Notes under the pieces: model-generated | What the model was told of the DNA's origin: nothing | The model's input: only the letters and a program-made list of their open reading frames with translations | Databases searched by the model: none | Translations under genes and position numbers: made by a program | Source: Bacillota bacterium | GTDB taxonomy: Bacteria > Bacillota > Dehalobacteriia > UBA4068 > UBA4997 | Assembly: GCA_021771915.1 (NCBI GenBank) | Contig: JAETNY010000005.1 | Span: 1 to 64,000, forward strand | Reading direction: 5' to 3' | DNA length: 64,000 bases | In this document: piece by piece, positions 3,149-6,942 of the stretch | Layout: every line of letters starts with the position of its first letter | Position numbering within the stretch: the first letter of the stretch is position 1

Positions 3149-4108
3149 TCAGGCAAAGAAAACGTCGCCGGTAACCAGGGTGAACTCGCCGCCATCCTCA
3201 CGCTTAACCAGCAGCGAGCCGTCCTCTTTCATATCCAGCGCTTCACCAAAAAATGTTTCATTCAGAGTAGAAATCTTGACGCGCCTGCCCAGCGTAATAT
3301 TGTTAGCCAACCAAACCCGACGAATTTCTGCAAAACCCTGCTCATATAATATAGTGTAATATTTTTCCAAATGATTAAGCAATTCCGCCGCCACCTGGGC
3401 TCTGATTACCGGTCTGTCTGGCTCCGCCAGCGCCAAAGAAGTGGCCACGTCCTGAATTTCCGGCGGCAAATCCTTATTCAGGCAGTTAATGCCAATGCCA
3501 ACCACCACCCATTCCACACTTTCCATGGAACCGTGCATTTCCGTCAGCATACCGCATATTTTACGACCGTCAATATAAATATCATTCGGCCATTTAATGC
3601 CGGCCTGATAACCCAATGCCTGCAAAGCGGCGCAGGTGGCAACAGCCGTCGTTAAAGAAATCTGCGGCGCGCGCTCCGGCTCCAGCCGGGGGCGCAAAAC
3701 CAGACTCAACCAAAGGCCCGTGCCGCTGGGACTGCTCCAGGCTCGACCCAGGCGGCCGCGTCCCTGCGTCTGCAAATCCGCCACCACCACCGCGCCGTTA
3801 ACAGCGCCCTGCTCCGCCCAGCTTTTGGCCGCAATGTTGGTGGAGTCCACCTCCGCCAGATATTTATATTCCCGGCCCAACCATTCCGTCTGCAAATAAG
3901 GCAAAACTTCTTCCTGACGCACGCCGTTGGGCAAAAGACGATAACCGCGGTTACGCACTGCCTCAATCGTATATCCCTCGTTTTGCAGACCCTTAACATG
4001 TTTCCAGACGGCCGCCCGGGATACGCCCAGCTTATCGCTCAAAGCCTCGCCGGAAATAAAATCGCCGGCCTCCAGCAGCAAGCGGAAAACATCATCACGC
4101 TTAACCAA
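3149..4108 (-). CDS. birA: bifunctional biotin ligase / biotin operon repressor
   Basis: BirA attaches biotin to carboxylase carrier proteins via biotinyl-AMP and, with its N-terminal helix-turn-helix, can repress biotin genes. The HTH is visible at residues 18-60 (LGVSRAAVWKHVKGL). The ligase core carries the biotinyl-AMP loop GRGRLGRAWSS and KWPNDIY with the catalytic lysine, then a short C-terminal SH3-like domain ending at residue 319. The full-length N-terminus means a repressor-competent form, and its neighbour bioY is the obvious target. Its own promoter is a near-perfect match at 4146-4174. Confidence 0.95.
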   Translation of the reverse strand: MVKRDDVFRLLLEAGDFISGEALSDKLGVSRAAVWKHVKGLQNEGYTIEAVRNRGYRLLPNGVRQEEVLPYLQTEWLGREYKYLAEVDSTNIAAKSWAEQGAVNGAVVVADLQTQGRGRLGRAWSSPSGTGLWLSLVLRPRLEPERAPQISLTTAVATCAALQALGYQAGIKWPNDIYIDGRKICGMLTEMHGSMESVEWVVVGIGINCLNKDLPPEIQDVATSLALAEPDRPVIRAQVAAELLNHLEKYYTILYEQGFAEIRRVWLANNITLGRRVKISTLNETFFGEALDMKEDGSLLVKREDGGEFTLVTGDVFFA

Positions 4109-4145
4109 TTATATCACCCCAAATACGGTTTTTTTACTACAATTC

Positions 4146-4174
4146 ATTATAAACCGATATTATGGAATTGTCAA
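4146..4174 (-). promoter_or_regulatory. consensus promoter for birA
   Basis: On the minus strand TTGACA (4169-4174) and TATAAT (4146-4151) are both perfect matches with a 17-base spacer, about 40 bases before the birA start. It should start the birA and probably the bioY-coaX-dusB transcript. Confidence 0.8.
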
Positions 4175-4190
4175 CCTTTTGGCAAACTAA

Positions 4191-4216
4191 AAGGGCGAGA
4201 TAAAAATCTCGCCCTT
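4191..4216. terminator. hairpin terminator between birA promoter and Cys-rich gene
   Basis: Perfect 11-base arms (4191-4201 and 4206-4216) enclose an AAAA loop. Read leftwards, the arm runs into a short T-rich stretch, so it can end transcripts coming from the Cys-rich gene and the repeat array before they enter the birA promoter. Confidence 0.7.
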
Positions 4217-4230
4217 GGCAATCGACAAAC

Positions 4231-4404
4231 GGTTTCCAACCGGCCTTGCCGGCTGGATAGGTTCACACTAAACTCTTGCTGCGCCTGCGGCTTGCAAATC
4301 GTTAAGTGTTCCCTGGCGGTTTCCAACCGGCTGCGCCGGCTGGATAGGTTCACACTAAACTCTTGCTGCGCCTGCGGCTTGCAAATCGTTAAGTGTTCAC
4401 CTAC
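4231..4404. repeat. tandem bipartite palindromic repeat, 2 x 87 bp
   Basis: Two nearly identical 87-base units. Each starts with a hairpin (CCAACCGGC, 3-base loop, GCCGGCTGG) and continues with an element bounded by GTTCACACTAA and TTAAGTGTTC, which are imperfect inverted repeats of each other, around a GC-rich core (GCGCCTGCGGC). The right-hand end touches the stop codon of the Cys-rich gene (4397-4399). The same design appears at 33331-33516 in the opposite orientation, and diverged versions at 10407-10502 and 40430-40583. Confidence 0.85.
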
Positions 4405-5281
4405 ATCCCCAGCAGCCGCTTTGCACAGAGGTGCAGTTGCATTTCCGGCAGCCGCAATCCTCATCTTCGTCGCCGGCCACTCCTCTTTTACATTTATTAA
4501 CCCTGGCCGGGTTGCCCTTGCAGCTTCTCTGTTTGTGCGGTTTATGGCCGCAAGTGCAGGGGCAGGTATCGTCGTCCATGCAGCAATAGGTGATGCAATC
4601 CTCATCGTCCTCGTCTTCTTCAGACTCAACGCCCTTGGAAGAACAGTTGCAGCAGGGAACATAGAACGGTATGCAGCCGCATCCCATCATGCAGCCCTTT
4701 TTCTTTTTATCGTCATCATCGCCGCAGCCACACCCACAGCAGCAGCCACAGGGCATACAAGGCATGCAGCAGCAGCAATCATCTGTATCGCCGGCCACGT
4801 CGCGGCAAGCACATTCCTGAGCAAATTTATAAAGTTCTGCCAGACGTTCCGCATGCCGACGCGAATCTCTAATCATGCTGAGCAAAACCTCTCGCTGCTG
4901 CATATCCGTCAGATAATAAGCCAGGTTTTCATAATCATTGCTCAACTGCATTTCATTATAAATAGCCACTTTAAGCCCCTTGCAGAAGCCTTTTGGTTCT
5001 TCAATACAAACCTCGCCAATGCAATAGCACTTACAAGTCAGCTCACGCAGAATTTGCTGAAGCAGGGCATAATGCCGGCGCTGGTCCATGCTGAACTGGC
5101 GAAACATCTCTTTATCCACCTCACACTGGGCGGTGTTCACCATGCAGCAATAGAACAACTCTGCCTCTCTGGCGCGCAGCATCACATCTTCAAAAATATC
5201 TTCCACGCCAAGCGTTCCATTGGAACACTCACAATCGTGGTAAAACGGAACATCACTACAAGTACATAATCTTCTGGCCAT
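4397..5281 (-). CDS. ferritin-like protein with very cysteine-rich C-terminal half
   Basis: No family is recognised with confidence. The first 140 or so residues form amphipathic helices like the rubrerythrin/ferritin-like fold: EAELFY, DQRRHYALL, NEMQLSNDYENL and DSRRHAERL lie in the order of the four metal-ligand helices. In both places where the family has ExxH, the Glu position reads Gln (DQRRH) or Ser (DSRRH), so a classical di-iron site is doubtful. From about residue 148 the protein turns into cysteine clusters (a CCCC run and CGCCCGCGCG) alternating with acidic and lysine runs; I count about 45 Cys in 294 residues. It has no signal peptide. An excellent AAGGAGG site precedes ATG 5281. 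Metal storage, metallothionein-like binding or a coat-type disulfide-linked protein are possibilities only. Confidence 0.8.
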   Translation of the reverse strand: MARRLCTCSDVPFYHDCECSNGTLGVEDIFEDVMLRAREAELFYCCMVNTAQCEVDKEMFRQFSMDQRRHYALLQQILRELTCKCYCIGEVCIEEPKGFCKGLKVAIYNEMQLSNDYENLAYYLTDMQQREVLLSMIRDSRRHAERLAELYKFAQECACRDVAGDTDDCCCCMPCMPCGCCCGCGCGDDDDKKKKGCMMGCGCIPFYVPCCNCSSKGVESEEDEDDEDCITYCCMDDDTCPCTCGHKPHKQRSCKGNPARVNKCKRGVAGDEDEDCGCRKCNCTSVQSGCWGCR

Positions 5282-5339
5282 AATATGGACCTCCTTTTTC
5301 TCTCTATGGAGTATTCATAATATAGCCTATTCCGCCGAC

Positions 5340-5582
5340 TCAAATCGGTGCTTGTACAACTTCTATCTTCAGCTTGCTCAATAATTTTAACAACACCGGC
5401 CGCATATCCGCCGTTACCCAGCAGCAAAGCAGCGCACGCTGCGCGTCCAGCGTGCTGACCAGCGCCAGATTATCATAGCCCTCAATAATTTTGTTCAGCC
5501 AGTCAATTTTGGCCGGCGGCACCTGCACATAAACCAATTCCTGCGCATGGCGTGCCAGCATCTCCGGAGTTATATCACTCAT
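5340..5582 (-). CDS. DUF4911 family small protein
   Basis: An 80-residue protein starting MSDITPEMLARHAQ, with AAGGAGG 6 bases before ATG 5582; longer in-frame starts lie inside the U32 gene and lack a site. It resembles the DUF4911 family of Bacillota, often found beside U32 peptidase genes, as here, where its start overlaps the U32 stop by 8 bases. The pattern (LVYVQVPPAKIDWLNKIIEGYDNLALVST, then a strand-rich C-terminus) suggests a small alpha/beta fold. Its function is unknown. Confidence 0.75.
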   Translation of the reverse strand: MSDITPEMLARHAQELVYVQVPPAKIDWLNKIIEGYDNLALVSTLDAQRALLCCWVTADMRPVLLKLLSKLKIEVVQAPI

Positions 5583-6942
5583 CAGCCGCCTCCTTGGTTT
5601 TGGCTGCTCTCTGCGGCCGCCGCAGAATACTGCCCGGCGGCAGGGCAAACGGACAGGCCAGCCAGGCATGTTGCTTGGCGTGCGGCAGACAGTCCAACTC
5701 CGCCCCGTCCTCGCTCCAGATAGCGCTTAAAGTCAGCCGGCGCACCGGCCCCTGCGGCTGAATAAACTCCACTTCATCACCCAGCCGCAAATGATTGCGC
5801 TGCTCAATATGCAGCCGCTGCCGCTCCGCGTCATAATCCAGCACCAAACCGGCAAAATCATAAACACGCTGGCTGTAACTGTTATCATAATCATAAGCGT
5901 CCGCACCCGGCGCTCCCGGAGCAGTCGCCAGACCAGCGGCCTGCGGCTCCGCCAGCGCAAAGCCTGTGAAATACTGGCGCTGGCTCAGTTTATCCAACTC
6001 AACGCCCCATTCCTGCGCGGCAATCTGCGGCTGCCAAAGCTTTTGCAAAGCCGCCGCGTCCAATTTGAAATCATGCCGCTGCCAAATCTCCCAACAAGCG
6101 TCCAACGCGTGCCGATAAACCCGGGTAACATTGGCCACATAATATGCGCTTTTCATGCGCCCCTCTATTTTCAGACTGGCCGCACCAGACAGTAAAATTT
6201 CCGGCAACAGTTCCAGCAGACGCAAATCCTTACTATTAAAAATGTAAGAACCCCATTTATCCTGTTCAATCGGCATATACTGCCCGGGACGTTTGGCCTC
6301 CTCCAGCCGATACTGCCAGCGGCAGGGCTGCGCACAATCACCCAAATTAGCGCCGCGGCCGCACAAAAAGCTGGATAACAGGCAACGTCCGGAATACGCC
6401 ATGCATACCGCGCCATGAACAAAAATTTCCAACTCAATCGGCACCGCCCGGGCAATCTGACCACATTCCGCCAGGCTAACCTCTCTGGCCAGCACCACCC
6501 GGCTGGCGCCCTGCTCCAGCCAAAACTGCGCCGTCTGGCTGTTGCTGCTGGCCGCCTGCGTGCTGATATGTCGCTCCACGCCCGGCGCCAACTCCCCGGC
6601 TAGCCGGAAAATGCCGGGGTCGGCAATAATAAACGCGTCCACACCCCACTCCGCCGCCTGCGGCAAAAGCTGGCGCAAAGCCGGCAAGTGCTGCTCATGC
6701 GCATAAACATTAACCGCCAGATAAACCTTAACCCCACTGGCATGGGCAAAATCCACCGCCGCCGCCAGTTCAGCCGCGTCAAAATTATGCGCCTGCGCGC
6801 GCAGGCTGAAATCGCTGGCGCCCAGATAAACTGCGTCCGCACCATATAACACAGCCAGGCGCAGCTTTTCCATGTCACCGGCAGGAGCCAGCAACTCTGG
6901 CTTGCTTATTGACATTTTTGTAACGTCCTGTTTAACGTCCAT
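5575..6942 (-). CDS. U32 peptidase-family protein (TrhP/YegQ-like)
   Basis: This 455-residue protein begins with the TIM-barrel signature PELLAPAGDMEKLRLAVLYGADAVYLG and carries the U32 pattern EIFVHGAVCMAYSGRCLLS with its cysteines, followed by further cysteines (FLCGRGANLGDCAQPCR). Families of this type include collagenase-like proteases and TrhP/TrhO-linked proteins for tRNA uridine-34 hydroxylation; which one applies cannot be decided here. ATG 6942 is preceded by GAGGAG at 10 bases and overlaps the mltG stop by 11 bases. The C-terminal 90 residues form a beta domain as in long U32 proteins. Confidence 0.88.
   Translation of the reverse strand: MDVKQDVTKMSISKPELLAPAGDMEKLRLAVLYGADAVYLGASDFSLRAQAHNFDAAELAAAVDFAHASGVKVYLAVNVYAHEQHLPALRQLLPQAAEWGVDAFIIADPGIFRLAGELAPGVERHISTQAASSNSQTAQFWLEQGASRVVLAREVSLAECGQIARAVPIELEIFVHGAVCMAYSGRCLLSSFLCGRGANLGDCAQPCRWQYRLEEAKRPGQYMPIEQDKWGSYIFNSKDLRLLELLPEILLSGAASLKIEGRMKSAYYVANVTRVYRHALDACWEIWQRHDFKLDAAALQKLWQPQIAAQEWGVELDKLSQRQYFTGFALAEPQAAGLATAPGAPGADAYDYDNSYSQRVYDFAGLVLDYDAERQRLHIEQRNHLRLGDEVEFIQPQGPVRRLTLSAIWSEDGAELDCLPHAKQHAWLACPFALPPGSILRRPQRAAKTKEAADE

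Follow-up and report, generated by a model that had tools for sequence, protein, structure and literature searches.

The locus considered in the current work raises the question of which role is served by a protein whose front half resembles a ferritin-like iron protein, and whose back half is a long tail rich in cysteine. All nucleotide positions refer to the window, this being the whole 64,000-nucleotide (64-kb) stretch of DNA that was analysed.

Gene and protein architecture

The gene corresponds to a minus-strand open reading frame (ORF) at 4397-5281, which specifies 294 amino acids plus a stop codon and is composed of the following parts:

4397..5281, minus strand: coding sequence of the 294-aa protein with ferritin-like core and Cys-rich tail (stop codon at 4397-4399)
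5207..5281, minus strand: N-terminal segment, residues 1-25, with a CxC...CxC arrangement (Cys6, 8, 17 and 19), mostly disordered by prediction
4808..5206, minus strand: predicted ferritin-like four-helix bundle, residues 26-158 (Pfam PF02915, AlphaFold full and core models, Foldseek)
4400..4807, minus strand: Cys-rich low-complexity tail, residues 159-294, predicted to be disordered
5289..5295, minus strand: ribosome-binding site AGGAGGT, inside a strongly conserved 5' leader

The protein contains 45 cysteines, 14 of which lie within residues 1-160 and the other 31 within residues 161-294, in agreement with the Cys-rich C-terminal half proposed by the initial annotation. The resulting Cys fraction (15.3%) is followed by a next highest value of 10.2% among all ATG-started ORFs of at least 100 aa in the 64-kb window. 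The tail is 23% Cys and poor in aromatic residues, its cysteines being arranged in CC, CxC and CCCC groups that are accompanied by acidic and lysine runs, and it includes two conserved blocks, (Y/W)CC(M/L)DDDxCPCxCG(H/R) and C(R/K)(R/K)C.

The front half is predicted to be a ferritin-like bundle

Four helices (residues 26-50, 54-82, 99-123 and 127-158) were predicted by AlphaFold, in whose full model residues 157-294 are disordered. The Pfam Rubrerythrin model PF02915 matches residues 103-152 with 25.8 bits (cut-off 22.8), and is matched by 22 of the 25 orthologs, while a profile of the orthologs searched against the PDB retrieved ferritin-like proteins (best 2FZF, 3e-9). When modelled with the 25 orthologs, the core obtained a pLDDT of 91.9 and a pTM of 0.86, and the nearest structures returned by Foldseek for this core are ferritin-like (e.g. 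1VJX, 8W1D and 2QQY; query-normalised TM of approximately 0.7-0.8, with modest E-values of approximately 1e-3). Sequence and structure evidence concur on this fold, and the front half is confidently predicted to form a ferritin-like four-helix bundle, for which the rubrerythrin-like helix order had been read correctly from the outset.

PF02915 was the only Pfam domain found in the protein, with no match to a rubredoxin-type FeCys4 domain. The tail alone did not match any Pfam family at E-values up to 1, nor did the whole protein match NCBIfam, so that the earlier remark that no described family has this combination holds for the libraries searched. No relative of the protein was encountered in the viral contigs searched.

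The di-iron site has lost most of its ligands

The ligand positions were assigned by alignment to an ortholog (L011) in which all four glutamates are present:

5171..5173, minus strand: Ala37, at the helix-1 Glu ligand position, ligand lost
5072..5083, minus strand: QRRH (residues 67-70), helix-2 ExxH with Glu replaced by Gln, His70 kept
4952..4954, minus strand: Glu110, at the helix-3 ligand position, kept
4853..4864, minus strand: SRRH (residues 140-143), helix-4 ExxH with Glu replaced by Ser, His143 kept

Three of the four carboxylates are therefore gone and both histidines remain, and the full Glu, ExxH, Glu, ExxH set of di-iron ferritin and rubrerythrin enzymes is absent from the protein. 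The initial annotation had read the two ExxH glutamates as Gln and Ser; Gln67 and Ser140 were confirmed, and Ala37 is an additional replacement. Ala37 and Ser140 occur in all seven members of the genus that were compared, each of which also keeps the two histidines and one glutamate, whereas Gln67 is confined to the species of the window and its nearest relatives (3/7), the other four having Glu67.

Outside the genus, all four glutamates are present in 6 of 18 orthologs, these being the ones of groups f1g2, f3 and f5 and three of group f2; the ligand set is E-A-E-K in group f4, and Q-E-K-Q or similar in most of f2. On the tree of the core the simplest count is three label changes, weak branches permitting fewer. 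The sets of lost ligands are not the same (A/S, A/K, Q/K/Q), which favours an ancestral intact site with repeated loss, and the di-iron site appears to have decayed in more than one lineage of the order. Relatives with an intact ExxH site had been put forward beforehand as evidence against the proposed reading; such relatives do exist beyond the genus, yet the closest ones are also Cys-rich (approximately 9-10%) and have the promoter described below in common with the gene, so that they date the change rather than refute the reading.

Distribution, conservation and selection

The gene is present in 31 of 41 relatives and its positional ortholog lies beside birA, coaX or dus across families of the order, where the counterpart is a short (~140-200 aa) ferritin-like protein; among 43 genomes of the class, strong matches are nearly confined to this order. 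The long tail is found only in the genus of the window, which is that of Candidatus Avidehalobacter (placed by NCBI in the Peptococcaceae), in eight of nine genomes. In the ninth (G001) neither the gene nor birA was matched, the birA search being one without a positive control; since birA is also unmatched, the assembly probably does not cover this locus, and loss of the gene is the less likely explanation.

Cys content is graded, with values of 0.7-4.4% in f2, 6.5% in f5, 8.8% in f3, 9.8% in f1g2, 10-11% in f4 and 14-17% in the genus of the window, corresponding to 39-50 cysteines per protein across seven species of the genus. Among the core cysteines, 13 of 14 are present in all seven species and the remaining one in six, and Cys53, 83, 100, 157 and 159 are common to several sister families. 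Tail cysteines present in all seven genus members include those at 229, 233, 234, 240, 242, 244, 264, 278 and 281. Many Cys columns, whose spacing in relatives had been suggested as a check, are thus conserved, though the CCCC/CGC stretch of the tail varies in length and spacing between species, the later blocks being steadier.

The ratio dN/dS is approximately 0.02-0.10 for the core and, where measurable, 0.08-0.37 for the tail, dS often being saturated. Purifying selection, as judged from these codon comparisons, acts on core and tail alike, and since the whole architecture is kept in eight of nine genus genomes with dN/dS well below 1 in both halves, the ORF is not a product of chance. A plus-strand ORF (3983-5269) overlapping the gene was rejected as a shadow frame, selection acting on the minus-strand frame.

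A candidate sigma-K-type promoter in a lineage with sporulation genes

The following elements were recognised upstream of the gene:

5347..5355, minus strand: -35 element ACAAGCACC of the candidate sigma-K-type promoter, which falls within the 3' end of the DUF4911 gene lying upstream
5323..5331, minus strand: -10 element AATAGGCTA of the same promoter, reading CATANNNTR in other genus members

The upstream layout consists of ACARGCACC, 15 bases, [C/A]ATANNNTR and a near-invariant leader that extends to the start codon. The motif GCAC-N16/17-[CA]ATANNNTR, whose first -10 base was relaxed to [C/A] once the sequences had been seen (the -10 element in the own genome starting with A, not C), is present no more than 120 nt from the start in seven of seven genus members, in all four representatives of f1g2, f3, f4 and f5, and in 2 of 13 members of f2, most of which lack it. 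None of 300 dinucleotide shuffles reached the motif counts of the genus or of the sister groups. Conservation of the -35 block is not merely that of the end of DUF4911, as two loci (L007 and L008) have a different upstream gene. In previous work, AC at -35 was found to mark sigma-K and ATA to mark sigma-E (PMC3789822), and B. subtilis sigma-K promoters were described with a gap of 14-16 nt (PMC517825). The spacing observed here fits that gap, and the element is taken as a candidate promoter of sigma-K type. The 5' leader has weak predicted stems (about -4 to -5 kcal/mol) and no convincing hairpin.

Within the 64-kb window a stricter form of the motif has a single match, located at this gene; over the window and the loci together it has 13 matches, of which 10 precede the gene or its orthologs. 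Immediately in front of the cotJ coat operon, the own genome (L084) and five relatives carry the same motif form. Genome-wide, the strict pattern GCACCN{14,16}CATANNNTA gave three matches as compared to one in the control, none of them at this gene, whose -10 begins with AATA; as this pattern is without clear genome-wide enrichment, the motif alone does not define a regulon. The sigma-K-type motif also precedes two other ORFs, L040:14481 (minus strand) and L041:7505 (plus strand) (MILAACLIVGL... and MLKFKILLAIVLI..., respectively), which could possibly be further late mother-cell genes.

A separate observation concerns the positional orthologs of f2 (L017-L031), in which E-to-Q, E-to-K and E-to-Q ligand changes are combined with a Cys-poor core, mostly without the GCAC promoter. 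In several f2 orthologs a GCATANNNTR box resembling a -10 element is located 30-40 nt before the start, and the f2 protein may differ from that of the window in its role or sigma factor.

With respect to sporulation genes, the own genome carries Spo0A and SpoIVA (above cut-offs), alpha/beta SASP, sigma-K (above cut-off) and CotJB. Spo0A, SpoIVA and SASP were also identified in nearly every relative, sigma-K above its cut-off throughout the genus, and CotJB in 20 of 21 genomes. The Spo0A and sigma-K models also matched non-spore-formers below the cut-off, and so only matches above it were counted. YabG, which has been called a signature gene of sporulation (PMC10681294) and was sought here as a sigma-K control, was absent from all 21 genomes of the order (G000-G020), and CotJB was used in its place; this absence implies that the coat programme differs from those of the models. 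From its genes, the source, whose lineage is known here from assembled genomes, would be a spore-forming gut bacterium.

Genomic neighbourhood

The gene is flanked by two genes outside the proposed system:

3149..4108, minus strand: birA (biotin ligase/repressor), downstream neighbour and synteny anchor
5340..5615, minus strand: DUF4911 gene, upstream neighbour, itself preceded by a U32 peptidase gene

The U32 peptidase and DUF4911 genes (5340-6942) lie just upstream of the gene, and a U32 peptidase gene has also been reported beside csxA of Clostridium sporogenes (PMC7333573); this shared proximity may be due to chance, the link not being kept across the order. Directly downstream (4230-4398), two tandem copies of a GC-rich element are found (82 nt, 96% identity, separated by 87 nt); in L004 the gene is likewise followed by a related element, and no further copy of the core of this element exists elsewhere in the 64-kb window. 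An inverted repeat with 34-nt arms (71% complementary) at 4168-4239, between the gene and birA, is possibly a terminator.

A probable spore-surface protein and the alternatives

The protein is probably a structural component of the spore coat or exosporium, produced late in the mother cell. Fold, ligand loss, orthology, conservation, sporulation gene set and promoter-motif conservation were computed directly, and it is from these that we infer sigma-K use in vivo, expression, localisation to the spore, oligomerisation, the state of the cysteines and their disulfide cross-linking. According to the proposed mechanism, the short ferritin-like protein of the order would already have belonged to the mother-cell regulon, after which, in the genus of the window, the di-iron site would have decayed and a Cys-rich tail of ~135 residues been gained. 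The catalytically dead four-helix bundle would then serve as a folded scaffold, probably oligomerising, which is cross-linked by tail and loop cysteines into an insoluble disulfide layer. A structural role fits the loss of ligands from a core whose dN/dS stays low, and a place at the spore surface fits the combination of a conserved, ligand-poor bundle, a faster-changing tail that preserves its cysteines and a promoter motif of the late mother-cell type. Points against this reading are the lack of clear genome-wide enrichment of the strict promoter pattern, the relaxation of the -10 element after the sequences were seen, the rarity of the motif in f2 and the absence of YabG from the genomes of the order. 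Regulation and context favour the disulfide-linked coat among the three roles put forward by the initial annotation, and the ligand loss disfavours metal storage at the ferritin site.

Alternatively, though we consider this unlikely, the protein could be a spore-associated metal buffer, made at the same late stage of sporulation, in which the bundle presents a tail that binds Zn, Cu or Fe in thiolate clusters. The grouping of the tail cysteines among acidic and lysine runs would suit such a buffer, as would the invariance of several of them in seven genus members and the resemblance of CPCxCGH to thiolate/His sites; against this, the variable CCCC/CGC stretch is more in keeping with cross-linking than with a defined cluster, and neither an adjacent metal transporter or metal regulator gene nor a match to a metallothionein family (Pfam, E up to 1) was found. 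The description of the tail as metallothionein-like applies to its composition, no homology to metallothioneins having been found. The arrangement of the cysteines would nevertheless be no less suited to binding metal, and the tail may do so, whether alongside cross-linking or in its place.

A vegetative ferritin- or rubrerythrin-type protein of oxidative stress or iron metabolism, with a modified or mononuclear site formed by the retained His70, Glu110 and His143, is improbable: the genus-wide retention of these residues, the position of Rubrerythrin as closest family, the intact orthologs of f1g2, f3 and f5 and the weak matches of encapsulin-cargo ferritin models to many orthologs are set against the recurrent loss within the order of a site that here lacks three of four carboxylates, a sigma-K-type motif shared with cotJ, and the failure to match a rubredoxin-type domain. 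That the gene is decaying or spurious, its tail being functionless low-complexity sequence in drift, is scarcely credible: such drift would account for a repetitive, predicted disordered tail that evolves faster than the core, but is contradicted by the purifying selection seen, by the absence of in-frame stop codons in eight genus genomes, by the core and tail cysteines kept in all seven species and by the strong conservation of promoter and leader.

Within the spore-surface reading, a more specific and distinctly speculative picture is that of a ferritin-type oligomer devoid of iron chemistry, which forms the tile repeated across a spore layer and is welded to its neighbours by a tail of 25-36 cysteines, perhaps holding metal too, with the less Cys-rich orthologs of sister families as graded forms. 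No published account was found of a spore coat protein that combines a ferritin-like domain with a Cys-rich tail. If the spore-surface reading is true, a domain that lost its metal site and a Cys tail together provide a seemingly undescribed solution to building a spore outer layer, and the stages between an iron protein and a structural one become open to stepwise testing, since sister genera have kept the site, lack the long tail and have the same promoter motif.

Comparison with known systems

With the Rubrerythrin/ferritin-like superfamily (PF02915; TM1526 1VJX, Pfu 2FZF, B. anthracis 2QQY) the protein has in common the four-helix bundle and the ExxH positions, as detected by profile and structural matches; it differs in lacking three of four carboxylate ligands, in having the added Cys-rich tail and in the unmatched rubredoxin domain. 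Encapsulated ferritins (EncFtn/EncB) gave weak profile matches to the protein or its orthologs, but their subunit consists of two helices whereas the present protein is a single four-helix chain, and no encapsulin shell gene is adjacent (the neighbours being birA, bioY, coaX, dus, DUF4911, U32 peptidase and mltG). Metallothioneins are alike in their high Cys content (CC and CxC groups) and in the scarcity of aromatics seen in the tail, the protein being set apart by its variable Cys spacing, fused folded domain, spore-type promoter and lack of a family match.

It is already known that spore formers use unrelated Cys-rich proteins for their outer layers, self-assembling spore-surface proteins of this kind without shared homology being an established pattern (PMC7333573, PMC6101409, PMC4950064); CsxA, ExsY and CotY, for example, are unrelated Cys-rich proteins that self-assemble into disulfide-linked spore layers (PMC7333573, PMC4950064). 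The exosporium morphogenetic proteins CdeC and CdeM of C. difficile, a gut spore-former, are likewise Cys-rich with clustered cysteines. CdeC contains 37 cysteines in 405 aa (PMC7677010) and has no recognised conserved domain (PMC6101409), as compared to the ferritin-like core and 15% Cys of the present protein, which is likened to it by description and not by homology. The likeness to C. sporogenes CsxA, B. cereus ExsY and B. subtilis CotY/CotZ, for which the same disulfide-cross-linked self-assembly is proposed, is also one of description, no library match to the protein having named CdeC, CsxA or CotY. The architecture is real and conserved, and most likely represents a variant of the Cys-rich spore-surface class; on this reading, by analogy, the protein would work like CdeC, CsxA and CotY.
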